From Aquabacterium lacunae (GTDB taxonomy: Bacteria > Pseudomonadota > Gammaproteobacteria > Burkholderiales > Burkholderiaceae_C): DNA of 64,000 bases. The notes below the pieces were generated by a model, which saw only the letters and a program-made list of their open reading frames with translations, ran no database searches and was not told where the DNA came from. Position 1 is the stretch's first letter, and each line of letters starts with the position of its first letter. This document shows positions 5,304 to 59,754 of this stretch, in pieces. The DNA lies in the NCBI RefSeq assembly GCF_004310865.1, contig NZ_SIXI01000001.1, forward strand, positions 496,001-560,000. Reading direction: 5' to 3'. Both the position numbers and the translations under genes were made by a program.

Positions 5304-5310
5304 GCGCGCA

Positions 5311-5316
5311 ATTTTA
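5311..5316 (-). promoter_or_regulatory. Leaderless-type -10 box before yqgE
   Basis: TAAAAT on the minus strand, followed by 7 bases and then the yqgE ATG at 5303. This places the expected transcription start on the start codon. No clear -35 hexamer is visible. It is one of a set of similarly placed hexamers in the window. Confidence 0.5.
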
Positions 5317-5353
5317 GTCGCCCTGCAATGCCCCCGCCCGCTGAATCAGACAC

Positions 5354-6844
5354 ATGACCGAACGAATCGACTCTGCCCTGGTCTGGTTTCGCCGCGATCT
5401 GCGGCACACCGACCATGCCGCCCTGTACCACGCCCTGAAAAATGCCCGCCGGGTGTGGTGCGTGTTCGTGCTGGACACCGACATCCTCGATGCCCTGCCC
5501 CGCCATGACCGGCGCGTGGCCTTCATCCTCGACAGCCTGCGTGAGCTCGATGCCGCCCTGGCCCGGCTGGCCCCTGGCAGCGGCCTGATCGTGCGCCACG
5601 GCTCCGCGCGCACCGAACTGCCCCGGCTGGCGGCCGAACTGGGCGTGCAGGCCGTGTACGCCAACCACGACGACGAACCTGACGCCCTGGCCCGAGACGC
5701 CCAGGTACGCGGCAAGCTCAGCGGCCTGGGCGCCGCGCTGTTCACCTCGAAAGACCACGTGATCTTCGAGCGCCACGAGGTGCTGACCGGCAACGGCACG
5801 CCCTATGGCGTGTTCACGCCCTACAAGAACGCCTGGCTGAAAAAGCTGGAGCCCTTCTACGTCAAGCCCTACCCGGTGGCGCCCTACGCGGCCCACTTGG
5901 CGGCCATTCCGGAGAAGATCGCCCCCCTGTGGCCCGAGCGCGTGCCCACCCTGCCCGAGATCGGGTTCGAGCCCGTGACCGACCTGAAGGTGCCCACCGG
6001 CATGAGCGGTGCAGAGCAGCTGCTGGACGATTTCCTGGCGCGCATGGACCGCTACGACGAGCAGCGTGACTTCCCGGCCGTCAAGGGGCCCAGCTACCTG
6101 TCGACCCACCTGCGTTTTGGCACCGTCAGCATCCGCCACCTGGCGTCGCTGGCCTGGGCCCGCATGAAGGAGGGCTCGGAAGGCGCCCGCGTGTGGTTGT
6201 CGGAGCTGATCTGGCGCGATTTCTACCACCAGATCCTGCACCACCACCCGCACGTGGTGGGCGGCGCCTACAAGCGCGAGTACGACCGCATCAAGTGGGC
6301 CAAGGGCAAGGAGGCCGAGGCCCACTTCCAGGCCTGGTGCGAAGGCCGCACCGGCTACCCCCTGGTCGACGCGGCCATGCGCCAGCTCAACCAGACGGGC
6401 TACATGCACAACCGCCTGCGCATGGTGGTGGCCAGTTTCCTGATCAAGGACCTGGGCATCGACTGGCGCCGGGGCGAGGCCTACTTCGCCGAAAAGCTGC
6501 TGGATTTCGACCTGTCGGCCAACAACGGCGGCTGGCAATGGGCCGCCTCCAGTGGCTGCGATGCCCAGCCCTACTTCCGCATCTTCAACCCCACCAGCCA
6601 GAGCGAAAAGTTCGACCCGCAGGCCAGGTTCATCCGGCGCTACGTGCCCGAGCTGGCCCCGCTGCCCGATGCCGCCCTGCACGCCCCCTGGCTGGCCCGC
6701 CCGGCCGACCTGGCCGCCGCCGATGATTTCGTGCTGGGCCGCGACTACCCCCAGCCCATCGTGCAGCACGACGTGGCACGGGCCGAAACGCTGGCGCGCT
6801 ATGCAGTGGTGAAGGCGCCTGACACGGGCGCCAAAAAGCGCTGA
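5354..6844 (+). CDS. phrB: Deoxyribodipyrimidine photolyase (class I CPD photolyase)
   Basis: Light-driven FAD enzyme that splits cyclobutane pyrimidine dimers. Its 496 residues match class I photolyases. The N-terminal alpha/beta antenna domain begins with LVWFRRDLRHTDHAALYHA. The C-terminal FAD domain carries WRDFYHQIL, MRQLNQTGYMHNRLRM, the DLSANNGGWQWAASSG stretch, and IFNPTSQSEKFDP, all strongly conserved. The ATG at 5354 is the only plausible start and lies in the 50-base divergent region shared with yqgE. It is convergent with the diguanylate cyclase gene downstream. Confidence 0.96.
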   Translation: MTERIDSALVWFRRDLRHTDHAALYHALKNARRVWCVFVLDTDILDALPRHDRRVAFILDSLRELDAALARLAPGSGLIVRHGSARTELPRLAAELGVQAVYANHDDEPDALARDAQVRGKLSGLGAALFTSKDHVIFERHEVLTGNGTPYGVFTPYKNAWLKKLEPFYVKPYPVAPYAAHLAAIPEKIAPLWPERVPTLPEIGFEPVTDLKVPTGMSGAEQLLDDFLARMDRYDEQRDFPAVKGPSYLSTHLRFGTVSIRHLASLAWARMKEGSEGARVWLSELIWRDFYHQILHHHPHVVGGAYKREYDRIKWAKGKEAEAHFQAWCEGRTGYPLVDAAMRQLNQTGYMHNRLRMVVASFLIKDLGIDWRRGEAYFAEKLLDFDLSANNGGWQWAASSGCDAQPYFRIFNPTSQSEKFDPQARFIRRYVPELAPLPDAALHAPWLARPADLAAADDFVLGRDYPQPIVQHDVARAETLARYAVVKAPDTGAKKR

Positions 6845-6865
6845 CCGCCCCGGCTTCCGGGGTCA
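6842..6865. terminator. Hairpin between convergent phrB and cyclase genes
   Basis: An imperfect inverted repeat, TGACC(g)CCCCGG...CCGGGGTCA, spans both stop codons of two converging genes. There is no T-run, so it may be a weak bidirectional terminator or simply a stable 3' hairpin. Confidence 0.35.
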
Positions 6866-7909
6866 GAACAGCTCGACGTCGCCTTCCAGGTTGGCGTCTT
6901 TGATGGTGCCAGCGCGCAGCAACTCGGGGTGGCTGATCACGCGGTTGCGCCCATGGTGCTTGGCGTGATAAACCGCCACGTCGGCCCTTGAGAACGCCGC
7001 ACTGGGGCTGTCGCTGGGCTGCACAGACGTGAAGCCGACGCTGACCGTGACTTGCCCCACCTGCGGGAAGGCATAGCTGGCCACCCGCTGGCGGAACCGG
7101 TCGAAGGCGGCCAAGGCGCCTGCTTCTTCGGGGCAGCGCACCATCACCACGAACTCCTCGCCGCCAAAGCGGAAGAGGCGATCGTAATGCCGGAAGGTCT
7201 GGCGCATCAGGCGGGCCACCAGCACCAGCACCTCGTCACCGATCAAGTGGCCGTACTGGTCATTGACCTTTTTGAAGAAGTCGATGTCGAGCACGCCCAG
7301 CCACCACTGGTCGCCCACCCGCTGTCGGCGGTCGGTGTCGCCCGGGGCCAGCATGTCGCGCCGCAACGAAGCCGACAGGAACGAGGTGTCGAAGGTCTGG
7401 CGGTTCAGCAGGCCCGTGAGGGGGTCCCGCTGGCTGGACGCCAGCAGCCGCAGAAAGTTGTCGAACACCTGCAGCACGGTGTGCACGGTGCGCACGGCCT
7501 GGATGCCCAGGCTGTCGGGCGTGACCAGCTCCACCACGCCCACTTCGCCGTCGTCGGTGTTCAGGGGCATGACGGTCAGCCAACCCGGCGGCAGGGGTGC
7601 CCGTGTGGGCACCTGCAGCATGGACGGGTCTTCCAGGGCCTGCTGGCGCAAGGGTTCGTCGTCGAAGGCAGGCAAGCTCTCGGGCTCGGCCCAGGACGGG
7701 TCACAGTCGAAGCCGCCGCTGGCCGTGACCTTGGCGCACTTGAACCAGCGCCGCTGCCCTTCCCCGTCGCGGATGGTGCGGTGCACCCCCGCTTCGTGCG
7801 CATCAAGGATGCGGCAAAGCGCCTGCGCGAGCCCCTGGTCCAGTTGCTCGCGGTCACGCAGGCTGGTCAGGGTGACCAGCTGCTCCATGGCGCCTTGCGG
7901 GCTGTTCAT
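6863..7909 (-). CDS. Diguanylate cyclase (GGDEF domain) at the end of the Pil-Chp cluster
   Basis: Makes cyclic di-GMP. The 348-residue protein has a soluble N-terminal region (about 1-155) resembling a GAF-like sensor, then a GGDEF domain starting at RDPLTGLLNRQTF. The active-site motif is GGEEF at 249-253, and the inhibitory-site RxxD (RHYD, 240-243) lies at the correct 5-residue spacing, so product feedback is expected. No transmembrane segment is seen. The last residues, EGDVELF, match the tail of the CheZ-like protein at 34917-35369. It starts 13 bases after chpA stops, so it is probably co-transcribed and a likely output of the surface-sensing array. The ATG at 7888 with AAGG upstream is an alternative start. 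Confidence 0.9.
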   Translation of the reverse strand: MNSPQGAMEQLVTLTSLRDREQLDQGLAQALCRILDAHEAGVHRTIRDGEGQRRWFKCAKVTASGGFDCDPSWAEPESLPAFDDEPLRQQALEDPSMLQVPTRAPLPPGWLTVMPLNTDDGEVGVVELVTPDSLGIQAVRTVHTVLQVFDNFLRLLASSQRDPLTGLLNRQTFDTSFLSASLRRDMLAPGDTDRRQRVGDQWWLGVLDIDFFKKVNDQYGHLIGDEVLVLVARLMRQTFRHYDRLFRFGGEEFVVMVRCPEEAGALAAFDRFRQRVASYAFPQVGQVTVSVGFTSVQPSDSPSAAFSRADVAVYHAKHHGRNRVISHPELLRAGTIKDANLEGDVELF

Positions 7910-7922
7910 GCCTTGACATGGA

Positions 7923-10900
7923 TCAAGTGAGAATGGCTCGAGTGTAGCCAGCCACAAGGCTCAGCAGTTCGTCTTCGCTGTAAGGTTTGCCCAGATAGTG
8001 ATTCACACCGAGTTCTGCTGCGTAGTCCCGGTGTTTTTGCGCAATCCGCGAGGTGATCATCACCACAGGGATGTCGCGCCAGCGGGCATCCCCGCGCAGG
8101 TTGCGCACCAGGTCGAAGCCGTCCATGCGGGGCATTTCAATGTCCGACAGCACCACGGTGGGCGTTTCCTCGGCCATGCACTCCAGCGCCTCCAGGCCGT
8201 CCTTGGCCAGGATGACACGGTAGCCCTCGCGGGTCAGCAGACGCTGCGTGACGCGTCGCACGGTGAGCGAATCGTCCACCACCAACACCAGGGGCACGCG
8301 TGACGCTTCGGCCTCGGCCTGCGCAGCCAGGGCAGCAGCCGCCAAGCCCTCCTCGCGGGCCTGACGGGCCCAGTGCTGTGCTTCCTGACCGTACACCGTG
8401 GCCAGGGCCACCGGGTTGTAGATCAGCGAAATGGCACCCGATGCCAGCAGGGTCATGCCCGCCAGACCGGGCACGCGCGAGAGCTGCGGGCCCAGGTTCT
8501 TGACCACCACGTCCTGGTTGCCCAGCACTTCGTCGACGTGCAGGGCCACGCGTTGCTGAGCCGAGCGCACCACCACCACCGGCAGTGAGCGGCCTTCCGC
8601 GGAACCCCTGGGGCTGTGCTGCAGCAGCGCGCCGAACCAGAAGAACGGCAAGGTCAGGTCGGCATACGGCACGCTGCCCGAGGCGTAGGCCGCTTCGACC
8701 TCGTCGGCGCGGGCACGGCGCACGATCTCGACCAGGTTGGTCGGGATGGAGGCCACCATGTCGCCGCAACGCACCATGACCACCTTGGTCACGGCGGTGG
8801 TCAGGGGCAGCACGAGCTTGAAGCTGGTGCCCTGCCCGGCCGCCGTGGCGGTTTCGATGCGGCCGCCCATGGCGTTCACGTCCGAGCGCACCACGTCCAT
8901 GCCAATGCCCCGGCCCGCCAGTTCGGTGACGGTTTCAGCCGTGGAGAAGCCGGGCTGGAAGATCAGCTGGGCCAGTTCGGCTTCGGTGGGCTCGGCGTCA
9001 GGGGCCAGCAGGCCCTGAGCCACGGCCTTGTCGCGGATGCGTGGCAGGTTCAGGCCGGCACCGTCATCACGGAACTCGATGCTGACTTCGTTGGCTTCCT
9101 GGCGAATGGCCAGCACGATGGCGCCCATGGCGGGCTTGCCGGCGGCTTCGCGCACATCCGGCTTTTCGATGCCGTGGGTCACGCAATTGCGCAGCAAGTG
9201 TTCGAAGGCACCGGTCATGCGGTCGAGCACGCCGCGGTCGACCTCGGTCTGTCCACCCACGATGTCCAGGCGGGCCTGCTTGCCGGTTTCCTTGGCCGCC
9301 TGACGCACCACGCGGTACAGGCGGTCGGCCAGGCCTTCGAACTCCACCATGCGCGTGCGCAGCAGGTCATCCTGCAGGTCACGGGTCAGGCGCGACTGGG
9401 CAGCCAGCTGGTCTTCGGCGGTTTCCAGGTTGCGCACCAGGCCGCGCTGCACGGTGGCCACGTCGTTCACCGACTCGGCCATCATGCGGGTGAGTTCCTG
9501 GAAGCGCGTGTAGCGGTCGAACTCCAGCGGGTCGAACTCGGCCTGGTTGGCACGGGCCGCCTCCATGCGGGTGCTCAACTGGGTTTCGGCCTGCAGTTCG
9601 ATGTCACGCAGTTGCTGACGCAAGCGGTCCAGGTTGTCGGTCATGTCGACCACCGAGGTGCGCATCTGCGTGAGCTGGCTGGCCAGGCGTGTGCGGGTGA
9701 TCGACACCTCGCCCGAATGGTTCACCAAGCGGTCGAGCAGGCGTGGCTTGACGCGCACCACGGCCAGGGCCGCGCTTTGCTGCTCGCCGGCACCAGCGCT
9801 CTCGGACAGGCGGAATTCGCCCACCACGCTGGCCCAGTCGATGGGCTGGGGCACGGGGGCTTCAGCCTTGCCTGCCAGAGCGGGTGCAGACGCGTTCACG
9901 CTGACCTGAACATCCGCACCTTGGGCAACATCCGCCTCAAGGGCGTCGGCATTGCCTGCTTCGGGCATGGCTTCTGCGAGCCCTGATGGATCGCCAGCCA
10001 GCAGGTCGGGCTCCAGGGCCAGCACGTCGGCTTCGGCCGCCAGCACGGCATCGACGCTCACGGTCTCGGGCGACTCATGCAGGGCCACCGGAGCCAGCGG
10101 CTGGCTCAGGCCCGGCTGCAGCGGCTCGGCATGCACCTCGGGGATCTGGTTCAGGTCGGCACGTTGCAGCGCGTCGAACAGCTCGGACAGCACGTCGGAG
10201 CGATTCTGCAAGGCCTCGATCTCGTGCGGCTCAGCCACTTCGCGCACCACGATGCGTTCGACCGCCGATTCCATCCGGTGGGCCAGTTCGCCCAAGCGCA
10301 TGGCACCGGCGAGGCGAGCACCACCCTTGAAGGTGTGCAGCGTGCGCATGCAGGCGGTGGCCAGGTCCATGCGTTCCGGGTGGGCTACCCACTGTCGCAT
10401 GTCGGCGGCCAGCTGGGGCAGCAGCTCCTGGGCCTCTTCCTCGAAAATGGGGAACAGGTCGGGGTCGATGGCATCGACAGCGTCGATGTCGGCGTCATCC
10501 CCCAGGTCGATGCCCGCATCGGCTGCCAGCAAGCTCATGCGTGCGGGCTCGACCAGGGGCTCGAACGGCTTGAGCTCGGGCAGGCCCAACGGCATGGGCT
10601 GAGTGCCCGCATCGTCCAGGCTGAAATCCACCGCAGTTTCGGGTGCGGAAGGCAGCTCGGTGACGGGTGCTTGCGCTGTTTCTGCGGACGATTCAGGCGA
10701 CGCGAGTGCGGTGGCCTCCACCAGGTCAGCGGCGACTTCGGCGACCTCGTCGGACGCAGCGCCTCCTTCGGCCACCTCGACTGGCGCCATACCGTCGACA
10801 TCGAATTCGACAGCAAGGTTGGCAGAGCTCAGCTCGATGGCCTGGATGTCGCTTTCAGGGTTGCCTTCTGGCAGAGTACCGAGCGCTTCACCCGGTTCGG

Positions 10901-18763: not shown

Positions 18764-18794
18764 GTTTGTTTGGCAGCATGAATACAATCAAACC

Positions 18795-24377: not shown

Positions 24378-24383
24378 TAGAAT
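24378..24383 (+). promoter_or_regulatory. Leaderless-type -10 box before mpl
   Basis: TAGAAT followed by 6 bases and the mpl ATG. There is no Shine-Dalgarno sequence in the 6-base gap, so transcription is expected to begin on the start codon. Confidence 0.5.
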
Positions 24384-24389: not shown

Positions 24390-25766
24390 ATGCACATTCA
24401 CATCCTCGGCATCTGCGGCACCTTCATGGGTGGCGTGGCTGCCCTGGCCCGGGAAGCGGGCCACCGAGTGACCGGCTGCGACGCCGGCGTCTACCCGCCC
24501 ATGAGCGACCAGTTGCGCGCCCTGGGCATCGACCTGATCGAGGGCTACACGCCCGACCAGCTCGCGCTCAAGCCTGATCTGTTCGTGATCGGCAATGTGG
24601 TCTCTCGCGGCAATGCCCTGATGGAAGCCATCCTGGATGCCGGCCTGCCCTACATCAGCGGCCCGCAATGGCTGGCCGAACACGTGCTGCAGGGCCGCCA
24701 TGTGCTGGCCGTGGCCGGCACCCACGGCAAGACCACCACCACCTCGATGCTGACCTGGATCCTGGAGGACTGCGGCCTGCAGCCCGGCTTCCTGGTGGGC
24801 GGGGTGCCCCAGAACTTCGGTGTGTCGGCCCGCCTGGGTCGCCTGGACGAGGCCTCGCGCCCGGCCAGTGGTCACCCCTTTGTGATCGAGGCCGACGAGT
24901 ACGACACTGCCTTCTTCGACAAGCGCAGCAAGTTCGTGCATTACCGGCCCCGCACCGCCGTGCTGAACAACCTCGAATTCGATCACGCCGACATCTTTGC
25001 CGACCTGGCCGCCATCGAGACGCAGTTCCACCACCTGGTGCGCACGGTGCCGGCCTCGGGTCGCCTCGTGGTCAACGCACGGGAAGAATCGCTGGAGCGC
25101 GTGCTCAAGCGCGGCTGCTGGAGCGACGTGGCGCGCTTCGGCGTGCGCGGTGACGTGCCCGGCTTCCGAGCCCGTGGCGAGCCCCATGCCTTCGACGTGC
25201 TGAAGTCGGGCGTGCTGGTGGGGCGTGTGGAGTGGAGCCTGCTGGGCGAGCACAACCAGATGAATGCACTGGCTGCCATCGCCGCGGCCGAACATGTGGG
25301 CGTGGCCCCGAAAGACGCTTGCGCGGCCCTGGGGCGCTTTGCCAACGTCAAGCGCCGGCTGGAGTTGCGCGGCACGGTGCGCGACATCACCGTGTACGAC
25401 GATTTCGCCCACCACCCCACGGCCATCCGCACCACGGTCGATGGGCTGCGCCGCAAGGTGGGGCCTGGCCAGCGCATCCTGGCCGTGTTCGAGCCCCGTT
25501 CCAACACCATGAAACTGGGCACCATGAAGGCCCAGCTGCCCTGGTCACTGGAAGAAGCCGACCTGGCCTTCTGCCACAGCGGCGGGCTGGGCTGGGACGC
25601 CCATGAGGCCCTGCTGGAAATGGGCGAGCGCGCCGTGGTGTCCGACCACATCGACACCCTGGTGGCCAAGGTGGCCAAGGTGGCCCGCCCGGGCGATCAC
25701 ATCCTGTGCATGAGCAACGGCGGCTTCGGCGGCATCCACGACAAGCTGCTCAAGGCGCTGGGCTGA
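24390..25766 (+). CDS. mpl: UDP-N-acetylmuramate:L-alanyl-gamma-D-glutamyl-meso-diaminopimelate ligase
   Basis: Recycles cell-wall peptide by joining the intact murein tripeptide to UDP-MurNAc, feeding peptidoglycan synthesis. The 458-residue Mur-ligase has the N-terminal Rossmann motif HILGICGTFMGGVA, the ATP loop AGTHGKTTT near 109-117, FVIEADEYDTAFFDKRSKF, which is specific to Mpl, and the C-terminal domain with FAHHPTAIRTT and FEPRSNTMK. It appears to be transcribed alone from a leaderless-type promoter. It converges on the glycerophosphodiesterase gene. Confidence 0.96.
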   Translation: MHIHILGICGTFMGGVAALAREAGHRVTGCDAGVYPPMSDQLRALGIDLIEGYTPDQLALKPDLFVIGNVVSRGNALMEAILDAGLPYISGPQWLAEHVLQGRHVLAVAGTHGKTTTTSMLTWILEDCGLQPGFLVGGVPQNFGVSARLGRLDEASRPASGHPFVIEADEYDTAFFDKRSKFVHYRPRTAVLNNLEFDHADIFADLAAIETQFHHLVRTVPASGRLVVNAREESLERVLKRGCWSDVARFGVRGDVPGFRARGEPHAFDVLKSGVLVGRVEWSLLGEHNQMNALAAIAAAEHVGVAPKDACAALGRFANVKRRLELRGTVRDITVYDDFAHHPTAIRTTVDGLRRKVGPGQRILAVFEPRSNTMKLGTMKAQLPWSLEEADLAFCHSGGLGWDAHEALLEMGERAVVSDHIDTLVAKVAKVARPGDHILCMSNGGFGGIHDKLLKALG

Positions 25767-37379: not shown

Positions 37380-39863
37380 TCACTCGATCGGCGTGAGCTT
37401 GGCCACGCTCAGCATCAGCCACTTGCTGCCGTGGCGGCCGAAGTTCACCTGAACCCGCGCATCAGGGCCGCTGCCCTCCAGGGTCAGCACCACACCTTCG
37501 CCGAACTTGTTGTGGAACACCTGCTGGCCCACCTTGAAGCCACCTTCGCTGCGGTTGGCCGCCATGGCCTTGGGCATGGGCGCGGTCAGATCCTTGAACT
37601 CGTCTTGCGGACGGCGTTCGGCCCACTTCTGGCCGCCGCTGTATCCACCGTTGTATCCGCTCCCCTGGCCACCACCCGAGCGCCAGGGCTGCGCGCCAGC
37701 TCCCACCACCGAGCCCAGGCCCTTGCCCGAGGCCCAGGCGTCCTGGTACTGCTTGGCATAACCTGAGCCAAAGCCCTGGTTGCGCGGCGTGAGCCACTTC
37801 AGGCTGGCTTCGGGCAGCTCATCGAGGAAACGGCTCTTGATGTTGTAGCGCGTCTGCCCGTGCAGCATGCGCGTCTGGCAGAAGCTGATGTGCAGCTTCT
37901 TGCGCGCCCGCGTGATGGCCACATACATCAGCCGGCGCTCTTCTTCCAGGCTCTCGCCGTCGTTCATCGAGTTCTCGTGCGGGAACATGCCATCTTCCAG
38001 CCCGGTGATGAACACGTTGTTGAACTCCAGGCCCTTGGCTGCGTGCACCGTCATCAGCTGCACGGCGTCCTGCCCGGCCTGGGCCTGGTTGTCGCCCGCT
38101 TCCAGCGCCGCATGGGTCAGGAAGGCCACCAGGGGCGAAATGATCTCGCCGGTCTCGGCATCGGGCAGCACGTCCACCCGGGCCACCGCGGTGGGCAGCC
38201 CCTGGGCTATTGCACCCGCGCCCTCGTCCACTGGCATGGCCACGGCGTCCTTGCCAAAGCCCTCCTGGGTCACGAAGGCCTCGGCCGCGTTCACCAGTTC
38301 GGCCAGGTTCTCCAGCCGTTCCTGGCCTTCTTTTTCGGTGCGGTAGAAATCGGCCAGCCCCGAGGCCTGCACCACGTGTTCGATGATGGCGCGCAGCGTC
38401 AGCCCGGCCGTCGCCTCGCGCATGGCGTCGATCAGGCCATTGAAGGCGGCCAGGTTGGCGCCAGCCTTGCCGGGCACGGCCGTGACGCTCTGGTACAGGC
38501 TGCGGCCGCTGATGCGGGCGGCATCCTGCAGCTGCTCCAGCGTGCGGGCACCAATGCCCCGCGCCGGGAAGTTCACCACCCGCAAGAAGCTGGTGTCGTC
38601 GTTGGGGTTCTCGATCAGGCGCAGGTAGGCCAGCGCGTGCTTGACTTCGGCCCGCTCGAAAAATCGCAGGCCGCCATACACCTTGTAGGGCACGCCCGCG
38701 TTGAACAGCGCCGATTCGATCACCCGCGACTGCGCGTTGCTTCGGTACAAAAAGGCCACCTCGTGCAGTGGCCCGCCCTCGCGGCGCAGCTGCCTGGCCT
38801 CATCCACCAGCCATTGGGCCTCGGCGAAGTCACTGGCCGCCTCGTAGATGCGGATGGGCTCGCCCTGGCCCTGGTCGGTGCGCAAGGTCTTGCCCAGGCG
38901 CTTGCTGTTGCGCGCGATCAGCTCGTTGGCCGCATCGAGGATGTGGCCGTGGCTGCGGTAGTTCTGCTCCAGCTTGATCACGCGCTGCACGCGGTACTCG
39001 CGCTCGAAATCGGCCATGTTGCTGACCTGCGCGCCGCGGAAGGCGTAGATGCTCTGGTCGTCGTCGCCCACGGCCATCACGCTGCAGCCATTCACATCAG
39101 GCCGCCCCGAGAACATCTTCAGCCAGGCGTACTGCAGCTTGTTGGTGTCCTGGAACTCGTCGACCAGGATGTGCCGGAAGCGGCGCTGGTAGTGTTCGCG
39201 CACCGGCGCGTTGTCGCGCAAGATCTCGTAGGTGCGCAGCATCAGCTCGGCAAAATCGACCACGCCTTCGCGCTGACACTGGTCTTCGTAGGCCTGGTAC
39301 ACCTCCAGCTGCATGCGGCCCAGGTCGTCACGCGGCACCAGGTCACGCGGGCGCTTGCCTTCTTCCTTGGCGTTGGCAATGAACCAGGTGGTGGCCTTGG
39401 GCACCACTTTTTCTTCGTCGAACTTCAGGCCCTTGATCACGCGCTTGACGGCCGACAGCTGGTCTTGCGTGTCCAGGATCTGAAAAGCCTGCGGCAGGTG
39501 GGCCAGCTGGTAGTGCGCGCGCAAAAAACGGTTGCACAGGCCGTGGAAGGTGCCAATCCACATGCCGCGGGCATTGATGGGCAGCATGGCCTGCAGGCGG
39601 GTCAGCATTTCCTTGGCCGCCTTGTTGGTGAAGGTCACGGCCATGATGCCGCCGGGCGTGGCCTGACCGGTCTGCAGCAGCCAGGCGATGCGGGTGGTCA
39701 GCACCCGGGTCTTGCCCGAGCCCGCGCCGGCCAGCACCAGGTTCGGCCCCGGGGGCGCCGTGACGGCGGCCAGCTGCTCCGGGTTCAGCCCCGCCAGCAA
39801 GGGGGAATCGGACAGGGCCTGGTCTGGGCCAGAATGGAAGGGGTCGAACAGATCGGAACTCAT
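37380..39863 (-). CDS. uvrD: DNA helicase II UvrD/PcrA
   Basis: ATP-dependent 3'-5' superfamily 1 helicase used in nucleotide excision and mismatch repair. Of its 827 residues, motif I is GAGSGKT at 46-52; DEFQDTN, VGDDDQSIYAFRGA, LEQNYRSHGHILDAAN and VHAAKGLEF mark later motifs. The C-terminal part has a Gly-rich linker and ends in a Tudor-like domain (VGQQVFHNKFGEGVVLTLEG), as in UvrD of many bacteria. ATG 39863 has no Shine-Dalgarno; TAGAAT lies 7 bases upstream, so a leaderless transcript is likely. No LexA box was found. Confidence 0.96.
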   Translation of the reverse strand: MSSDLFDPFHSGPDQALSDSPLLAGLNPEQLAAVTAPPGPNLVLAGAGSGKTRVLTTRIAWLLQTGQATPGGIMAVTFTNKAAKEMLTRLQAMLPINARGMWIGTFHGLCNRFLRAHYQLAHLPQAFQILDTQDQLSAVKRVIKGLKFDEEKVVPKATTWFIANAKEEGKRPRDLVPRDDLGRMQLEVYQAYEDQCQREGVVDFAELMLRTYEILRDNAPVREHYQRRFRHILVDEFQDTNKLQYAWLKMFSGRPDVNGCSVMAVGDDDQSIYAFRGAQVSNMADFEREYRVQRVIKLEQNYRSHGHILDAANELIARNSKRLGKTLRTDQGQGEPIRIYEAASDFAEAQWLVDEARQLRREGGPLHEVAFLYRSNAQSRVIESALFNAGVPYKVYGGLRFFERAEVKHALAYLRLIENPNDDTSFLRVVNFPARGIGARTLEQLQDAARISGRSLYQSVTAVPGKAGANLAAFNGLIDAMREATAGLTLRAIIEHVVQASGLADFYRTEKEGQERLENLAELVNAAEAFVTQEGFGKDAVAMPVDEGAGAIAQGLPTAVARVDVLPDAETGEIISPLVAFLTHAALEAGDNQAQAGQDAVQLMTVHAAKGLEFNNVFITGLEDGMFPHENSMNDGESLEEERRLMYVAITRARKKLHISFCQTRMLHGQTRYNIKSRFLDELPEASLKWLTPRNQGFGSGYAKQYQDAWASGKGLGSVVGAGAQPWRSGGGQGSGYNGGYSGGQKWAERRPQDEFKDLTAPMPKAMAANRSEGGFKVGQQVFHNKFGEGVVLTLEGSGPDARVQVNFGRHGSKWLMLSVAKLTPIE

Positions 39864-39870: not shown

Positions 39871-39876
39871 ATTCTA
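39871..39876 (-). promoter_or_regulatory. Leaderless-type -10 box before uvrD
   Basis: TAGAAT on the minus strand, 7 bases before the uvrD ATG. The gap has no ribosome binding site and no good -35 hexamer is seen. Confidence 0.5.
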
Positions 39877-42830: not shown

Positions 42831-42836
42831 TAAAAT
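42831..42836 (+). promoter_or_regulatory. Leaderless-type -10 box before valS
   Basis: TAAAAT followed by 6 bases and the valS ATG. No Shine-Dalgarno sequence is present. A TGGACA motif at 42812-42817 lies too close (13 bases) for a standard -35. Confidence 0.5.
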
Positions 42837-42842: not shown

Positions 42843-45689
42843 ATGACCGAACTCGCCAAATCCTTCGAACCCGGCCCCATTGAAGCCAAATATGGCCCCC
42901 AATGGGAGCAGCGCGGCCTGTACAAGCCCACGCTCGACGCGTCCAAGCCCTCGTTCTGCATCCAGCTGCCGCCCCCCAACGTGACCGGCACGCTTCACAT
43001 GGGCCACGCCTTCAACCAGACCATCATGGACTCGTTGACGCGTTACCACCGCATGAAGGGCCACAACACGCTGTGGGTGCCCGGCACCGACCACGCCGGC
43101 ATCGCCACCCAGATCGTGGTGGAACGCCAGCTGCAGGAAAAGGGCCAGAACCGGCACGACCTGGGCCGCAAGAACTTCGTCGCCAAGATCTGGGAATGGA
43201 AAGAGCAAAGCGGCTCGACCATCACCCAGCAAATGCGCCGCATGGGCGATTCGGTCTCGTGGGAACACGAATACTTCACCATGGACGACAAGCTGTCCAA
43301 GGTGGTCACGGAAACCTTCGTCAAGCTGCACGAAGAAGGCCTGATCTACCGCGGCAAGCGCCTGGTGAGCTGGGATCCCATCCTGAAATCGGCCGTGTCC
43401 GACCTCGAAGTCGAAAGCGAGGAAGAAGACGGCTCGATGTGGCACATCCGCTATGCGGTCAACGGCAGCGCCGACACCCTGGTCGTGGCCACCACCCGCC
43501 CTGAAACCCTGCTGGGTGACACGGCCGTGATGGTGCACCCGGAAGATGAACGCTACGCCCACCTGATCGGCCTGCAGGTCAAGCTGCCCATCACCGGCCG
43601 CCTGGTGCCCGTGATCGCCGACGAATACGTGGACAAAGAGTTTGGCACCGGCGTGGTGAAGGTCACCCCCGCCCACGACACCAACGACTACCAGGTCGGC
43701 CTGCGCCACAAGCTGCCCATGCTGACCATTTTCGACCTGGAAGCCAAGGTCAGCGCCCACGAAGCCAGCGACATCCCGGCAGCGTATGTGGGCCTGGACC
43801 GCTTCGTGGCCCGCAAGCAGATCGTGGCCCAGCTCGAAGCCGACGGCCAGCTGGTCGAGGTGAAAAAGCACAAGCTGATGGTGCCCCGCTGCGCCCGCAC
43901 CGGCCAGGTGATCGAGCCCATGCTGACCGACCAGTGGTTCGTGGCCATGACCAAGCCCGGTGCCACAGGCAAGAGCATCGCCGAGCAGGCCATCGAGGCC
44001 GTCGAATCGGGTGACGTGAAATTCGTGCCCGAGAACTGGGTGAACACCTACAACCAGTGGATGAAGAACATCCAGGACTGGTGCATCAGTCGCCAGCTGT
44101 GGTGGGGCCATCAGATCCCGGCCTGGTACGGCAGCAACGGCGAAGTGTTCGTCGCCCGCTCGGAAGACGAAGCCCGCACCAAAGCCACCGCCGCCGGCTA
44201 CATCGGCGAGCTCACCCGCGACGAAGACGTGCTGGACACCTGGTACTCGTCGGCGCTGGTGCCCTTCTCGACCCTGGGCTGGCCCGAGCAGACGAAGGAA
44301 ATGGACCTGTTCCTGCCTTCGTCGGTGCTGGTCACCGGCTACGACATCATCTTCTTCTGGGTCGCCCGGATGATCATGATGACCAAGCACTTCACCGGCA
44401 AGGTGCCTTTCAAGCACGTGTACATCCACGGCCTGGTGCGTGATGCGCAGGGCAACAAGATGTCGAAGTCGGAAGGCAATGTGCTCGACCCGGTCGACCT
44501 GATCGACGGCATCGAACTGGGCCCCCTGCTCGACAAGCGCACCACCGGCCTGCGCAAGCCCGAGACCGCGCCCAAGGTGCGAAAGGCCACCGAGAAGGAA
44601 TTCCCGGACGGCATCCCCGGCTATGGCGCCGATGCGCTGCGCTTCACCTTCGCGGCGCTGGCCAGCCTGGGCCGCGCCGTGAACTTCGACTCCAAGCGCT
44701 GCGAGGGCTACCGCAACTTCTGCAACAAGCTCTGGAACGCCACCAAGTTCGTGCTCATGAACACCGAAGGCCAGGACTGTGGCCTCAAGACGCATGAGCC
44801 GGGCGTATGCGCCGCCGGTGGCTACCTGCAGTTCAGCCCGGCCGACAAGTGGATCGTGTCCGAACTGCAGCGCGTGGAAGCCGCCGTGGAACAAGGCTTT
44901 GCCGAGTTCCGCCTCGACAACGTGGCCAACGCCATCTACCAGTTCGTGTGGGACGAATACTGCGACTGGTACATCGAGATCGCCAAGGCCCAGCTGAACG
45001 CCGCCAAAGATTCTGGCAACGAAGCCGCCGCCCGCGCCACCCGCCGCACCCTGATTCGCGTGCTGGAAACCGTGCTGCGCCTGCTGCACCCCATCACGCC
45101 CTTCATCACCGAAGAGCTGTGGCAGGTGGTGGCCCCGGTGGCCGGCCGCAAGGCCGAAGGCAGCGACGACACCCTGGTGCTGGCCGCCTACCCGCAGCCT
45201 GACCTGGGCCGCGTGTGCGCCGAGTCAGACGCCTGGGTGGCCAAGCTCAAGGCCGTGGTGGGCACCGCCCGCAACCTGCGCAGCGAAATGAGCCTGTCGC
45301 CCGCCGAGCGCGTGCCCCTGCTCACCACGGGTGACGCCGCCTTCATCGAACAGGCAGCCCCCGTCATCAAGGCCCTGGCCAAGCTGAGCGAAGTCAAGCT
45401 GCTGGACGAAGCCGCTTTTGCCCAAGCCACCACCATGGCCCCTGTGGCCGTGCAGGGTGAAGCCCGCCTGGCGCTGCACGTCGAGATCGACGTGGAAGCC
45501 GAAAAGGCCCGCCTGACCAAGGAAGTGGCCCGACTGGAAGGCGAGATCGCCAAGGCACAGGCCAAGCTGGGCAACGAAAGCTTCGTGGCCCGCGCGCCCG
45601 CTGCGGTGGTGGAACAGGAAAAGGCCCGCGTGGCCGATTTCGGTGCCACGCTGGCCCGCGTGAAAGAGCAGCTCAGCCGACTGGGCTGA
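42843..45689 (+). CDS. valS: Valyl-tRNA synthetase
   Basis: Class I aminoacyl-tRNA synthetase of 948 residues that charges tRNA-Val. The HIGH motif is HMGH in [16 protein letters not shown], and KMSKS occurs as [10 protein letters not shown]. The CP1 editing domain includes [20 protein letters not shown]. The C-terminal coiled coil ([18 protein letters not shown]) is the tRNA-binding arm. The gene is monocistronic, bounded by a leaderless-type promoter and a strong terminator. Confidence 0.98.
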
Positions 45690-50815: not shown

Positions 50816-50816
50816 G

Positions 50817-52510: not shown

Positions 52511-52723
52511 TCAATCCTCCATGCCTGCAGGACGCAAGCCCTGGAAAGTTAATAAACCACTTCAATGCTAGCAGCAAAGTTTTTGAACATGAAACGCGAT
52601 GTAGCCCGGCTTTTCACCTAGTCGTTGTTCCTTCCAGACGCCTTACACATGGTTTCACAAACCCCTTGCCAACTGTGGCGAGGGCTGACGAAGAGGCCTG
52701 GCAGAGGTTTCACAGGGCATTTC

Positions 52724-52729
52724 TATAAT
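52724..52729 (+). promoter_or_regulatory. Candidate -10 box of the PBP1A gene
   Basis: Perfect TATAAT, 26 bases before the mrcA ATG, within the 245-base region shared with pilM. No good -35 hexamer is seen at 16-18 bases. The leader lacks a strong Shine-Dalgarno sequence. Confidence 0.5.
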
Positions 52730-52755
52730 GCAGGGATTGCCCTGAATGCCCGCCA

Positions 52756-55146: not shown

Positions 55147-55159
55147 GGGCCGCAGCAGA

Positions 55160-55513
55160 TCAGAAAGTCAGCGGTTGCCCGGCCTGGGCCGTGGCGCACG
55201 CCGACAGCATGTCGAAGAAGTCTTCACCGGTGCGGGTGTCGGGCCAGCGGTCACCGCCGGCGTACCGGAAGTGATAACCGCCCTGGCGTGCGGCCAGCCA
55301 CAGCTCATGCAGGGGCGGCTGCATGTTGACGATCAGCTGGCTGCGATTGGGCAGGCTGAGCGTGACCATGCCGCCGGTGCGGGCCGCGTCGATGTCGATG
55401 AGGTCATCTTCGAGCCAGGCATCGACCTGCGCTTCGATTCGGGCCAGCGCACGGCGAGCCGCTGCGTCGTAGTCGGCATCAGGGAAGCCGGAAGGCGTGG
55501 AGGCGTCGGACAT
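55160..55513 (-). CDS. cyaY: Iron donor protein CyaY (frataxin)
   Basis: Small acidic frataxin homologue of 117 residues that binds iron and modulates iron-sulfur cluster assembly on IscS. The N-terminal helix is acidic (DYDAAARRALARIEAQVD, with EDDLIDID), and LVNMQPPLHELW and GGYHFRY are family features. Only 23 bases separate its ATG from the divergent lptM start. It converges on mrcA, 13 bases from the mrcA stop. Confidence 0.95.
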   Translation of the reverse strand: MSDASTPSGFPDADYDAAARRALARIEAQVDAWLEDDLIDIDAARTGGMVTLSLPNRSQLIVNMQPPLHELWLAARQGGYHFRYAGGDRWPDTRTGEDFFDMLSACATAQAGQPLTF

Positions 55514-55523
55514 GGCTCTTACT

Positions 55524-55529
55524 TAGAAT
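55524..55529 (+). promoter_or_regulatory. Leaderless-type -10 box before lptM
   Basis: TAGAAT followed by 7 bases and the lptM ATG, in the 23-base gap between the divergent cyaY and lptM starts. A separate leader with a ribosome binding site cannot fit here. Confidence 0.55.
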
Positions 55530-55536
55530 GGCGGGC

Positions 55537-55701
55537 ATGAAAGCACAGAAGCCTCGAATTCTAAAGACGCCATGGCGAGCCTGCCTGGCGGCACTGCTTT
55601 GCTGCACCGCACTGGCCGGGCTTTCCGGCTGCGGACAGAAAGGGGCCCTGTACCTGCCTGCCCCGGCCACCCCGTCGGCGCCCGCCGCCCCCACCCCCTG
55701 A
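55537..55701 (+). CDS. lptM: LPS-assembly lipoprotein LptM (YifL-type)
   Basis: Small lipoprotein of 54 residues. A hydrophobic signal peptide ends in LSGC (Cys32), and the conserved mature start CGQKGALYLP matches LptM/YifL, which helps oxidative maturation of the LptD translocon at the outer membrane. A Pro/Ala-rich tail follows. It lies between cyaY and lysA, as in many proteobacteria. lysA starts 13 bases downstream, so it is likely co-transcribed. Confidence 0.9.
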   Translation: MKAQKPRILKTPWRACLAALLCCTALAGLSGCGQKGALYLPAPATPSAPAAPTP

Positions 55702-55714
55702 AAGCATTCCTGCC

Positions 55715-56980
55715 ATGAACCTGCCTGGCTCCCCGTTCCTGCAATACCGCGGCGAAGACCTCTACCTGGAAGACGTGCGACTGGCCGACCTGGCCACCCA
55801 GCACGGCACCCCCCTGTATGTGTACTCGCGCAATGCCATGCGCGCGGCCCTGGCGCCCTACCAACAGGCGCTGGAAGGTCGCCAGCACCTGATCTGCTAT
55901 GCGGTCAAGGCCAACTCCAACCTGGCCGTGCTGCAGACCTTTGCCCAGGCCGGCTGCGGCTTTGACATCGTGTCGGCCGGTGAATTGGCCCGCGTGCTGG
56001 CCGCCGGTGGCCAGCCAGGCAAGGTGGTGTTTTCGGGGGTGGGCAAGACCCGCGACGAAATGAAGCTGGCCATGCAGGCCGGCGTGAAGTGTTTCAACGT
56101 GGAAAGCACGGCCGAGCTGGAGGTGCTGTCAGACGTGGCCAGCCAGAACGGCCTGACCGCCCGCGTCAGCCTGCGCGTGAACCCCGACGTGGACGCCGGC
56201 ACCCACCCCTACATCTCGACCGGCCTGAAGGGCAACAAGTTCGGCATCGCGCACGAACTGGCCGTCGAAACCTATCGCCGTGCCGCACAACTGCCCGGCA
56301 TCGAGGTGGTGGGCATTGACTGCCACATCGGCTCGCAGATCACTGACGTGTCGCCCTACCTCGACGCATTGGAACGCGTGCTGGACCTGGTCGAAGCCAT
56401 CGAATCGCACGGCATCACCCTGCACCACCTGGACCTGGGCGGCGGCCTGGGCATTCGCTACACCGACGAGACCCCGCCGGACGCCCGCACCCTGATCGGG
56501 CAGCTGCTGGCCCGCATCGATGTGCGCGGCCACGGCCACCGCGAGGTGATGTTTGAACCCGGCCGCTCGCTGGTGGGCAATGCCGGCGTGCTGCTGACCG
56601 AGGTGATGTTCCTCAAGCCCGGTGAGCAGAAGAATTTCTGCGTGGTCGATGCCGCCATGAACGACCTGATGCGCCCTGCGCTGTACGAGGCCTACATGGG
56701 CATCGTGAACACCCGCCAACGCAGAGGTGAGACCACCACCTGGGACGTGGTGGGTCCGGTCTGCGAATCGGGTGACTGGCTGGGCCGCGACCGCGACCTG
56801 AATGTGCAGCCCGGCGATGTGCTGGCGGTGCTGTCGGCCGGTGCCTACGGCATGACCATGGCCAGCAACTACAACTCGCGCGGACGCGCCGCCGAACTGA
56901 TGGTCGATGGTGCGCAGGTGCACGTGATCCGTGCACGGGAAACGGTCGAGAGCCTGTTTGCCGAAGAGCGTTTGATCTGA
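55715..56980 (+). CDS. lysA: Diaminopimelate decarboxylase
   Basis: PLP enzyme that converts meso-diaminopimelate to lysine, the last step of that pathway. Of its 421 residues, the PLP lysine is Lys65 in CYAVKANSNL. GFDIVSAGEL, HIGSQITD, LDLGGGLGI and GPVCESGDWLGRDR are family motifs; the Cys in the last is part of the active site. It is the second gene of the lptM-lysA pair and is followed by an intrinsic terminator. dapF, often next in this neighbourhood, is absent here. Confidence 0.97.
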   Translation: MNLPGSPFLQYRGEDLYLEDVRLADLATQHGTPLYVYSRNAMRAALAPYQQALEGRQHLICYAVKANSNLAVLQTFAQAGCGFDIVSAGELARVLAAGGQPGKVVFSGVGKTRDEMKLAMQAGVKCFNVESTAELEVLSDVASQNGLTARVSLRVNPDVDAGTHPYISTGLKGNKFGIAHELAVETYRRAAQLPGIEVVGIDCHIGSQITDVSPYLDALERVLDLVEAIESHGITLHHLDLGGGLGIRYTDETPPDARTLIGQLLARIDVRGHGHREVMFEPGRSLVGNAGVLLTEVMFLKPGEQKNFCVVDAAMNDLMRPALYEAYMGIVNTRQRRGETTTWDVVGPVCESGDWLGRDRDLNVQPGDVLAVLSAGAYGMTMASNYNSRGRAAELMVDGAQVHVIRARETVESLFAEERLI

Positions 56981-57000
56981 TACAGCCAAACGCAGCGAAG

Positions 57001-57025
57001 GCGCACCACCCCGGTGCGCTTTTTG
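57001..57025 (+). terminator. Intrinsic terminator of lysA
   Basis: Stem GCGCACC/GGTGCGC with a short loop, followed by a T-tract. It lies 20 bases after the lysA stop. Confidence 0.85.
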
Positions 57026-57211
57026 CATTTTGGAGACACATCAAACGGCCGTTTGTGGCCCACCCACCACACAAACGGCGGAAAAAGGCAAGTGCCTATA
57101 CCCGCCCACCCCCTGATCTGGTGGAATGCAACCAACTCTTCAACGGAGAGTTCGGGGCAGACGCCTTGCGCGGAAGAACCTGTCCCACCGTTCAACTCTG
57201 GAGAACACCTC

Positions 57212-58249
57212 ATGAAAAAGTCTCTGATCGCTCTGGCCGCACTGGGTGCTTTTGCTGGCTCTGCCATGGCTCAATCGTCCGTCACGCTGTACGGTGTTGT
57301 TGACCTGGGTCTGGTCAAGCAGAACCGTGCTGACGCCTCCCCGGCTGGCATCACCGCGCTGGGCGCCGTGGGTTTGACGAACAAAGAACTGAACGTTGCC
57401 CAGGCCACCAAGTCGCGTCTGGGCTTCCGCGGCGTGGAAGACCTGGGTGGCGGCTACAAGGCCAAGTTCAAGCTGGAACACCGCTTCACTCCCGACAACG
57501 GCGCTCAATCTGCGACCGCTGACTTCTGGGACATGAGCGTGGTGGCCCTCGAAACCCCCGTGGGTGAAATCGGCGCTGGTCGTGACTACATGCCCGCTTT
57601 CTACCTGCAATTCAAGCAAGACCCGTGGCTGAACCAGGGCATTGCTGAAGTGGGTGGCACCACCACTTACGCCTTTGCAACCTACATCACGCCGACCACC
57701 CGCAGCGCACGCGTGAACAACGCTCTGTTCTACTCGATGGCAGCAAGCGGCTTCACCGTTCAAGCTGCTGCATCGATGAAGGAAAGTGGCACCCCAGGAA
57801 CGACCCCCGGCGCCACTGGAGACGCTGGTGCCAAGAACCGCTTCGGTCTGGGCGTGAGCTACGAAGCGGGCCCCTTGTTTGTTGGCCTGGCGTACGACCA
57901 ATCGGAACGGACCGTGGGAGCTGATCACAACCTGACCATGCTGGGCGCATCCTACGATTTCGGCATGGTCAAGCCCCGAGTCAGCTATGCACGCGCTGAT
58001 TTGGGCGCCACCACTCCTACCTCTTACATCGTGGCCGCCACTGTGCCCGTGGACACCAACATCGTGAAGCTGGGCTACGCCCATTTCGATGCTGACAACG
58101 CCACCAGCACCAAGGCCAACAAGTTCTCGATCGGTTACGAGCATGTGTTGAGCAAGCGCACCGCGGTTTACACCGACGTGACAAGCGGCAAGATCAAGGG
58201 TTCTCAAACCGTCACCGGTTTCGACGTGGGCGTTCGCCACACCTTCTGA
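57212..58249 (+). CDS. Gram-negative porin (first of two)
   Basis: Outer-membrane trimeric beta-barrel of 345 residues for general diffusion of small solutes. The signal peptide MKKSLIALAALGAFAGSAMA is followed by the family start QSSVTLYGVVDLGL. GFRGVEDLGGGYKAKFKLEH and the C-terminal FDVGVRHTF (terminal Phe, an outer-membrane targeting signal) are typical of the Burkholderia/Comamonas Porin_4 group. GGAG precedes ATG 57212. About 230 bases with no other gene lie upstream and presumably hold its promoter. It is convergent with a paralogue at 58404-59465. Confidence 0.95.
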   Translation: MKKSLIALAALGAFAGSAMAQSSVTLYGVVDLGLVKQNRADASPAGITALGAVGLTNKELNVAQATKSRLGFRGVEDLGGGYKAKFKLEHRFTPDNGAQSATADFWDMSVVALETPVGEIGAGRDYMPAFYLQFKQDPWLNQGIAEVGGTTTYAFATYITPTTRSARVNNALFYSMAASGFTVQAAASMKESGTPGTTPGATGDAGAKNRFGLGVSYEAGPLFVGLAYDQSERTVGADHNLTMLGASYDFGMVKPRVSYARADLGATTPTSYIVAATVPVDTNIVKLGYAHFDADNATSTKANKFSIGYEHVLSKRTAVYTDVTSGKIKGSQTVTGFDVGVRHTF

Positions 58250-58277
58250 TCCCGGCAGGTCTCGCACCTGACGTCAG

Positions 58278-58302
58278 ACGCCCCGCCCTGCGGGGCGTTT
58301 TT
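58278..58302 (+). terminator. Intrinsic terminator of the first porin
   Basis: Stem ACGCCCCG/CGGGGCGT with a 5-base loop and a T-tract, 29 bases after the stop codon. Confidence 0.9.
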
Positions 58303-58335
58303 CTTTGGGGCGACGCCATGGTTGGCAAGGCCCAA

Positions 58336-58365
58336 AAGAAAGCCGGGCCCAAAGGCCCGGCTTTC
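58336..58365 (-). terminator. Intrinsic terminator of the second porin
   Basis: Stem AAAGCCGGGCC/GGCCCGGCTTT with a loop of about 4 bases. On the minus strand it is followed by a T-rich stretch and lies about 40 bases after the stop of the minus-strand porin. Confidence 0.85.
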
Positions 58366-58403
58366 AGCTGTTGAGTTGCGAGCGCCCCAAGGGCGCTGCC
58401 TCA

Positions 58404-59465
58404 TCAGAAGGCGTGGCGAACGCCGAAGGCGATGCCGTGGCTGCTCTTGCCGGCGCCAGGCATTTGCTGAGCCACACCGATGTTGGCGTTGGAGGTGGTG
58501 CCGTTGTCGTTGTCGACGGCAGTCAGCAGACCGTACACGGCGGTGCGCTTGCTCAGGTTGTACTGACCCTTCAGTGCGACGATCAGGGCGTCGGCGTTGG
58601 CCACAAAGTTCACGTTCGAAGCCTGGGCCACAGAAGCGGTCAGGGTGAAGTCCTTCGACAGGGGCACAGCGGCCTTCAGGCCAGCCAGTGCGCGCTTGTC
58701 GTAGGCAGCGGACGTGTTGTTGCTGTCGCTGTCGTCTTGCTCGAAGTAAGCCGTGACCTTGGCCAGACCGAAGTCATACGAACCGTACACCAGCACGGCA
58801 TCGGCTTCTTGGGTACCGTTGGTGTTCTGCTTGGCCGACACGTAACCCAAGCCCAGGCCCAGGGGGCCAGCCACGTATTGGGCGTTCAGGCCGTAGGCTT
58901 CACCGGTGTCAACACCCGAGGTTTCGGTGCCAACGGCCGACGAGGAGCCCACAGCAGTCGAGTACTGCACTTGAGCCGACAGGCCATCCACCAGCTTGGG
59001 CAGGATGTAGGTGATGCCGTTGTCCACGCGACGGTAGGTCGACGAAGCCAGCATGTTGGCAATGCGCAGGTCGTCATAAGCCTGGGTGCCCAGGATGGCG
59101 CTGTTGCCGGCGATCACGCCGATCGACGAATCTTGACGGCCCAGGCGCAGTTCGCCGTAGCCGGTTTCCAGACCCAGCCAGGCGGCGCGGTCGAAGAAGC
59201 GGGTAGCGCCGCCGCCGTTGGCGCCGGTGTCCACGGCCACAGCAGTTTCCAGGGTGAACTTGCCCTTCAGGCCGCCACCGATGTCTTCCACGCCGCGGAA
59301 GCCCAGGCGCGAAGAGGCCAGGTTGTCAGACGACACGCGGGTGACCGACTTGGCACCCTTGACGTTTTCGATCGAAGCGTCAACCACGCCGTACAGGGTC
59401 ACGGACGATTGAGCGAAGGCAGAGGCGGAAACCAGAGCGGCCAGAGCGATCAGGGTCTTTTTCAT
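58404..59465 (-). CDS. Gram-negative porin (second of two)
   Basis: Outer-membrane beta-barrel of 353 residues. The signal peptide MKKTLIALAALVSASAFA precedes QSSVTLYGVVDASIE; GFRGVEDIGGGLKGKFTLE and the C-terminal FGVRHAF place it in the same family as the first porin, but the loops differ clearly. GGAGAG precedes ATG 59465. It is convergent with the paralogue, and each has its own terminator in the 154-base gap. The two probably differ in substrate or in regulation. Confidence 0.95.
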   Translation of the reverse strand: MKKTLIALAALVSASAFAQSSVTLYGVVDASIENVKGAKSVTRVSSDNLASSRLGFRGVEDIGGGLKGKFTLETAVAVDTGANGGGATRFFDRAAWLGLETGYGELRLGRQDSSIGVIAGNSAILGTQAYDDLRIANMLASSTYRRVDNGITYILPKLVDGLSAQVQYSTAVGSSSAVGTETSGVDTGEAYGLNAQYVAGPLGLGLGYVSAKQNTNGTQEADAVLVYGSYDFGLAKVTAYFEQDDSDSNNTSAAYDKRALAGLKAAVPLSKDFTLTASVAQASNVNFVANADALIVALKGQYNLSKRTAVYGLLTAVDNDNGTTSNANIGVAQQMPGAGKSSHGIAFGVRHAF

Positions 59466-59730
59466 GAAATTCTCTCCAGAAGACTTGCAAATGCGGCAGG
59501 AACAAACAGGTGTGTGCTCCGTGATCCGAGTATCAAGCCCGATGAAGCCGGCGCTTGCGACTTGAACGCATGGGTTCATGAGAGAACCGCATGTGACCCA
59601 GTGCAGCGCCTGCTCGGGGCTTCGACAGGCGAGATTGAACCCGCTTTGTGTGAATGAATTGATGACAACCCTGTCACATGTGGTCTTCCACGCGGATCAT
59701 GTTGTGTGACCGCAACAGTGACCAAACGCG

Positions 59731-59736
59731 TATGAT
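59731..59736 (+). promoter_or_regulatory. Leaderless-type -10 box before ruvB
   Basis: TATGAT followed by 6 bases and the ruvB ATG. No Shine-Dalgarno sequence is present. The LexA-type box begins 3 bases after the hexamer. Confidence 0.5.
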
Positions 59737-59738
59737 CA

Positions 59739-59754
59739 CTGTATGAGCATACAG
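59739..59754 (+). promoter_or_regulatory. LexA (SOS) box across the ruvB start codon
   Basis: CTGT-N8-ACAG, the exact core of the gamma/betaproteobacterial LexA operator (CTGTATGAGCATACAG). The ATG of ruvB is inside it. Repressor bound here would block RNA polymerase at the predicted -10 and start site. ruvAB is SOS-regulated in E. coli, so the assignment fits the gene's role. Confidence 0.75.

Follow-up and report, generated by a model that had tools for sequence, protein, structure and literature searches.

In a 64 kb stretch of the Aquabacterium lacunae genome (hereafter the window, 65.3% GC) several genes are preceded by a -10-like hexamer, TANNAT, that ends only 6 or 7 nt before their ATG, which raises the question whether these genes are transcribed into leaderless mRNAs. 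Both strands of the window were scanned and seven TANNAT-N6/7-ATG strings were found, compared to a mean of 1.05 and a maximum of 4 expected from a first-order Markov model of the window (60 runs). Six of the seven precede yqgE, mpl, uvrD, valS, lptM and ruvB, as identified with NCBIfam profiles, and the seventh lies inside another open reading frame (ORF). The positions and spacings of the six sites were as originally predicted (7 nt for yqgE, uvrD and lptM; 6 nt for mpl, valS and ruvB). The prediction that these genes give rise to leaderless mRNAs is in turn supported by a distance peak at 6–7 nt that is sharp, poor in Shine-Dalgarno (SD) sequences and confined to ATG in the genome itself, and that is repeated in another genus of the family. 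We consider the sites very likely to be leaderless transcription units. Their position, the ATG preference, the scarcity of SD sequences and the conservation, in which box and ATG move together, are observed, and the following mechanism is inferred. RNA polymerase carrying the housekeeping sigma factor would bind a -10 box resembling TANAAT that ends 6–8 nt before the A of the ATG, transcription would start at this A or one or two bases from it, and the ribosome would read the 5'-terminal AUG directly with no SD contact. Such AUGs are read by 70S initiation, and in Actinobacteria and Deinococcus-Thermus TANNNT is placed so that the +1 coincides with the start codon.

The spacing was evaluated in a sample of 60 stretches of 20 kb (1.2 Mb) taken at round coordinates from five contigs, together with the window, which amounts to roughly a third of the genome. 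Genes were called from codon usage and a start-codon weight only, leaving upstream motifs unused, and 999 of the 1006 resulting genes had 100 nt of upstream sequence. TANNNT was observed 16 times at a spacing of 6 nt and 19 times at 7 nt, that is before 35 of the 999 genes, while counts at the remaining spacings between 0 and 19 nt ranged from 0 to 3 (3 at 8 nt and 1 at 9 nt). Counts rose broadly at about 20 to 40 nt upstream of the starts, where leadered promoters are expected. Dinucleotide shuffles gave a mean of 4.2 and a maximum of 10 at 6 and 7 nt (100 shuffles), and column permutation, which keeps the positional composition and hence part of the signal, a mean of 17.1 and a maximum of 31 (2000 permutations). 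The distance peak over shuffled sequence that the original prediction had anticipated is thus present. The narrower TANNAT occurred 12 times at 6 nt and 5 times at 7 nt before called starts. When all TANNAT-ATG strings in the sample were counted, this corresponded to 12 of 20 strings with N6 and 5 of 13 with N7 falling on called starts, compared to 0/3, 1/8, 0/6 and 0/6 for N12, N13, N18 and N19, respectively. Over the whole genome the N7 form, the only one counted at this scale, had 31 matches compared to 13 for the reversed pattern.

The genes with TANNNT at 6 or 7 nt differed from other genes in start codon, SD content and context. All 35 start with ATG (35/788 ATG genes, 0/182 GTG genes and 0/29 TTG genes; Fisher p 0.0004), and the control counts were 3 of 788 ATG genes at 12 or 13 nt and 13 of 7440 internal in-frame ATGs at 6 or 7 nt. 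An SD 4-mer was found in 1 of the 35 compared to 292 of the 964 other genes (p 1e-4); the overall frequency was 29% in the sampled genes and 6.7% in a control stretch, the latter scanned for three of the 4-mers. Divergent genes contributed most cases (24/304), followed by operon-like genes (6/414) and genes behind a gap of more than 60 bp (5/278), and the predicted leaderless units are accordingly mostly at divergent promoters. Five of the six window genes are among the 35, lptM with its 54 amino acids being below the length range of the gene caller. The strict pattern corresponds to about 3% of the sampled genes above chance, and the leaderless share including looser boxes is estimated at 3–5%.

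A similar picture was obtained for another genus of the family (G066; 400 kb, 336 genes), in which TANNNT was found 8 times at 6 nt and 6 times at 7 nt. None of these 14 genes had an SD 4-mer compared to 104 of the 322 others, and one of the 14 starts with GTG (1/47 GTG genes). Only 18 orthologue pairs were shared between this genome and our sample, which is too few for comparison; 17 were without a box in either genome and one had a box in G066 alone.

Conservation of the sites was evaluated in relatives from other genomes by scoring TANNNT at 6–8 nt ahead of an in-frame start codon that lay no more than 60 nt from the aligned start. Loci with alignments beginning after residue 60 were excluded, leaving 26 of 30 for valS, 29 of 30 for uvrD, 28 of 29 for mpl and 29 of 30 for ruvB, while for yqgE the family set consisted of the best 80 of 525 relatives. 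The box was present in 79 of the 80 yqgE relatives, 22 of the 29 uvrD loci and 21 of the 28 mpl loci. At control spacings of 13–15 nt the same family loci gave 1 (yqgE), 0 (uvrD), 2 (mpl), 0 (valS) and 0 (ruvB) matches and at 20–22 nt they gave 11, 1, 3, 0 and 1. For uvrD the count by genome was 21 of 28, as L229 and L230, both positive, belong to one genome, and extending the start range from 60 to 75 nt gave 23 of 29 loci. The start codon of boxed loci was ATG in all cases for yqgE (79/79), uvrD (22/22) and mpl (21/21) and in 2 of 3 for valS.

The yqgE gene (window 4722..5303, minus strand; YqgE/AlgH family, NF001267, 309 bits), whose product is 84% identical to its nearest named relatives, from Aquabacterium species, has its TAAAAT at 5311..5316, 7 nt before the ATG with its A at 5303. 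In the 79 boxed family loci the distance from the ATG to the conserved core of the protein varies between 6 and 12 codons, and the box still lies 6–8 nt before the ATG (6 nt in 51, 7 nt in 22 and 8 nt in 6 loci), meaning that box and ATG move together. At positions 4 and 5, largely unconstrained by the search pattern, the box had A in 100% and 97% of the loci, while the 20 nt upstream of the box were 51% conserved on average. A later in-frame start before the core was present in only 7 of the 79 loci, none of them with an SD, so that a downstream translation start is unlikely.

Outside the family, yqgE starts were assigned blind to the motif by taking the final ATG ahead of the conserved core, and TANNNT or a few near forms were accepted as hexamers. 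Loci lacking such a start were excluded, leaving 32 of 33 loci in the order, 40 of 45 in the class and 27 of 28 in the phylum, where the class is taken to be the Gammaproteobacteria of GTDB with the beta-proteobacteria included. One member of the own family is included among the order loci, and two class genomes recur in the phylum set. Searches listed at most 30 loci each, to which 20 further yqgE loci were added (16 class, 4 order); matching genomes outside the sets number 11 in the order, 3 in the class and 29 in the phylum. A hexamer at 6–8 nt was found in 24 of 32 order-level loci and, for other orders of the class, in 19 of 40, compared to shuffle means of 1.5 and 3.1 and maxima of 7 and 9 (500 shuffles), respectively. 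Other three-base windows gave 0–6 and 0–5 matches. In other orders the box often reads GATACT or CATACT, and boxed loci with TTG 17–18 bp further upstream numbered 9 of 24 in the order, 15 of 19 in the class and 3 of 8 in the phylum; in 13 of the 19 class loci (within L356-L384 and L462-L477) this was CTTG. In these orders a full sigma-70 promoter, with both its elements, would hence run right up to the yqgE start codon, a geometry that argues for the box being a promoter.

Positions 1, 2 and 6 of the aligned family boxes are fixed by the search pattern; the family box of yqgE, uvrD and mpl is TA[AGC]AAT and the commonest hexamers of the three differ only at the third base. T, the sigma-70 consensus at this position, is absent from the 79 yqgE, 23 uvrD and 22 mpl aligned family boxes, while it is present in 14% of the 35 boxes of the own genome and also occurs in order-level uvrD boxes. 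TTG 16–18 bp upstream of the box was found in 0 of the 79 yqgE family loci, and a general promoter scan, which demands a -35, returned nothing at yqgE. On this reading the -35 of yqgE would have become undetectable in the family of the window, with the -10 nearly invariant. The absence of clear -35 boxes, raised with the original prediction as a caveat, is thus real in the family and agrees with the weak -35 reported for Burkholderia cenocepacia from the 5'-end mapping of Sass et al. 2015 (PMC4603805).

Several observations weigh against leaderless transcription, at single loci or in general. A -35 was detected neither in the own-genome set nor in the yqgE, uvrD and mpl family sets (best match at most one standard deviation above shuffles), so that promoter identity in the genome and the family is judged from the -10 only. 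Unconstrained expectation-maximization motif search converged on an SD-like motif and not on the box, and the gene share was therefore taken from the strict pattern. A C before the ATG, considered as a sign of transcription start, was rejected, being present in 77% of candidates and 75% of other ATG genes. Six of the 35 candidates, mpl among them, follow a same-strand gene within 60 bp. For yqgE, an SD 4-mer precedes the ATG in 6 of the 79 family loci, and in the order the box of 8 of 32 loci lies off 6–8 nt (one at 9, five at 12–18 and two at 22–24 nt), two of the eight (L310 and L301) having an SD (AGGAG and GGAG); the leaderless state of yqgE can consequently be lost. At the phylum level the hexamer was found in 8 of 27 loci and, as this set mixes further class genomes with more distant ones, no claim is made for yqgE beyond the class. 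For the other genes, the box was found in only 3 of 26 valS relatives, one of them on GTG, and in 0 of 29 ruvB relatives, or 6 of 29 when a broader hexamer at 5–8 nt was accepted, and at the order level in 3 of 29 loci for mpl (one of them on TTG, the control spacings giving 1 and 1) and 7 of 29 for uvrD (9 with a broader hexamer; controls 2 and 0).

On the relatives' counts the idea of the six genes as one conserved class was dropped. The arrangements of uvrD and mpl are kept mainly within the family and fade in the order, and those of valS and ruvB look lineage-specific; a few of the ruvB loci listed across the order have a box. The suggestion that leaderless translation marks out housekeeping and repair genes as a deliberate class accordingly holds only in part: yqgE may fit it, but valS and ruvB do not keep the arrangement in relatives, mpl and uvrD keep it mainly in the family, and the candidates are functionally mixed. 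Most leaderless arrangements seem to come and go and that of yqgE seems ancient; among the genes tested, only yqgE looks to be held leaderless by long-term selection. Whether yqgE has been anciently leaderless, its promoter-start fusion at 6–8 bp kept through the divergence of beta- and gamma-proteobacteria by selection on leaderless initiation itself while the -35 box, the flanks and the N-terminus changed, is to our judgment evenly balanced. The advantage might be that the yqgE operon is expressed according to the state of the ribosome pool.

Four other explanations of the sites were weighed. Transcription might start 1–8 nt upstream of the ATG or just inside it, the ribosome tolerating a few extra bases of a very short leader. 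This is rather unlikely, although the spacing is not single-valued, with the 6, 7 and 8 nt of yqgE in the family and 12–18 nt in five order-level genomes, and although Sass et al. (PMC4603805) report 42 start sites within 10 nt of the start codon besides 72 located exactly on it. The genome profile is nevertheless sharp, falling from 16 and 19 at 6 and 7 nt to 3 and 1 at 8 and 9 nt, and one-base variation of the start site, which is ordinary, accounts for the 6–8 nt spread. Improbable as well is that the boxes are genuine -10 elements from which leaderless output is minor, a second promoter further upstream making the main, leadered mRNA. Relatives of valS and ruvB without a box must indeed be transcribed from elsewhere and mpl follows closely behind another gene, but at yqgE only 50 bp separate the start from that of a divergent photolyase gene, leaving little room for a second promoter, and a leadered mRNA would lack an SD. 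That the hexamer is instead a regulator binding site or a translational element and no promoter is very improbable: a conserved TTCC or TTTC precedes the uvrD box in the family set and an inverted repeat surrounds that of ruvB, yet the yqgE box outside the order has sigma-70 geometry and the commonest yqgE, uvrD and mpl hexamers are nearly identical. Chance or base composition, by which TA-rich hexamers would be there by accident, could apply to single window cases such as valS and ruvB, most or all of whose relatives lack the box and which may be young, but as a general explanation it is most improbable given the peak height, the ATG preference, the SD anticorrelation and the conservation.

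Leaderless transcription of the sites, the reading preferred here, places Aquabacterium within known systems. Zheng et al. 2011 (PMC3160421) predicted TA-led genes in many bacteria, with TAnnnT about 10 bp before the start replacing the SD in high-GC groups; for beta-Proteobacteria the figures are 9/71 genomes and a mean of 6.8% of genes (2.8–10.6), a range that the Aquabacterium share of about 3–5% fits. The TAnnnT pattern is also given there for Actinobacteria and Deinococcus-Thermus, with about 20% and 40% of genes leaderless, respectively, compared to a few per cent in Aquabacterium. GTG is hardly used here, unlike in those two groups (0/182 in the own sample and 1/47 in G066). In B. cenocepacia J2315, which belongs to the same order, the -10 consensus is TAnAAT and the weak -35 TTGCC (PMC4603805), the same box being accompanied by start sites at start codons. 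Of the 114 sites on or within 10 nt of the start codon in that study 24 are tRNAs, leaving 90 by subtraction; a primary start site was assigned to 2089 genes in all. Leaderless genes as such are thus nothing unusual in the order and have been measured there before. Transcriptional regulators are over-represented among them in B. cenocepacia, while the Aquabacterium candidates are functionally mixed.

As the phenomenon is known in the order, the notable part is the deep conservation of the yqgE arrangement. In PMC3160421 and PMC4603805 leaderless genes are described as per-genome shares that change between relatives, and the former, in its available part, gives proportions and change rates between genomes and names no single gene as leaderless across orders. 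The promoter-start fusion of yqgE across many orders of the class constitutes a test case for what, if anything, selects leaderless initiation. Conserved leaderless status needs proof gene by gene, since of five look-alike sites tested three were kept in the family and one well beyond it, and start-site annotation in the order should weigh the -10 box.

The remaining window sites are as follows. On the plus strand, mpl (murein peptide ligase; 24390..25766, TIGR01081, 707 bits) has TAGAAT at 24378..24383, 6 nt before the ATG at 24390, and starts 55 bp behind a same-strand gene. The uvrD-type DNA helicase II gene (37380..39863, minus strand; TIGR01075, 960 bits, under the cut-off of 1144) has TAGAAT at 39871..39876, 7 nt before the ATG with its A at 39863. 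On the plus strand, valS (valine--tRNA ligase; 42843..45689, TIGR00422, 1077 bits) has TAAAAT at 42831..42836, 6 nt before the ATG at 42843, and lptM (54 amino acids; 55537..55701, NF047847, 32.5 bits, cut-off 27.7) has TAGAAT at 55524..55529, 7 nt before the ATG at 55537. This gene is short and fast-varying, and a relative was detected in 7 of 29 other genomes; in 5 of the 7, TACAAT or TACACT lies 6–8 nt ahead of an ATG close to the aligned start. The ruvB gene (Holliday junction helicase; 59743..60831, plus strand; TIGR00635, 488 bits) has TATGAT at 59731..59736, 6 nt before the ATG at 59743. An inverted repeat, ACAGTGA-N14-TCACTGT, spans 59715-59742 with its right arm ending at the ATG and may be an operator or a chance occurrence.

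The yqgE gene heads a run of minus-strand ORFs, and those that follow are presumably ruvX, pyrR, pyrB and a pyrC-like gene, judging from order and length. It diverges from the photolyase gene, the 50 bp between the two starts covering window 5304-5353. In the loci L061-L140, 72 of 76 photolyase relatives were usable, and in 44 of the 72 a -10-like hexamer of its own (e.g. CACACT, CAGACT or TAGACT) was located 6–8 nt from the photolyase ATG, so that the two genes may be a back-to-back leaderless pair. Strict TANNNT at 6–8 nt was found in 14 of the 72 and the broader pattern at 14–16 nt in none. By eye the photolyase hexamer is not clear in the window itself.

Weaker strings listed alongside the six sites were also found at the predicted spacings, namely CAGAAT-N7-ATG at cysM (ATG 62064), TATGCT-N6-ATG at a glycerophosphodiesterase gene (ATG 26586) and TACAAT-N7-TTG at 18787. 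At cysM (window 62064-62073) a second in-frame ATG lies 9 nt upstream of 62064, and CAGAAT overlaps this upstream ATG.

Functions of the genome-wide candidates were scanned for 33 of the 35, two crossing tile borders, and were mixed. Besides the window genes they include uvrC, dnaB, ubiD, hemC, coaBC-like and rsmB, as well as an RlmJ-type protein, a UPF0176 protein, an SRAP peptidase, a PEP-utilising enzyme, regulators and transporters. Repair and replication are represented by uvrD, ruvB, uvrC, dnaB and SRAP. The gene for the SRAP (SOS-associated) peptidase (L029:14386-15027, minus strand) has TACGAT-N7-ATG with CTGT-N8-ACAG, which resembles a LexA box, just upstream, and is possibly an SOS-controlled leaderless gene. 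At L048:17875-17911 an AMP-binding enzyme gene and an ORF of 84 amino acids with no Pfam match form a divergent pair separated by 35 bp, and each of the two has TANNNT 6–7 nt before its ATG.

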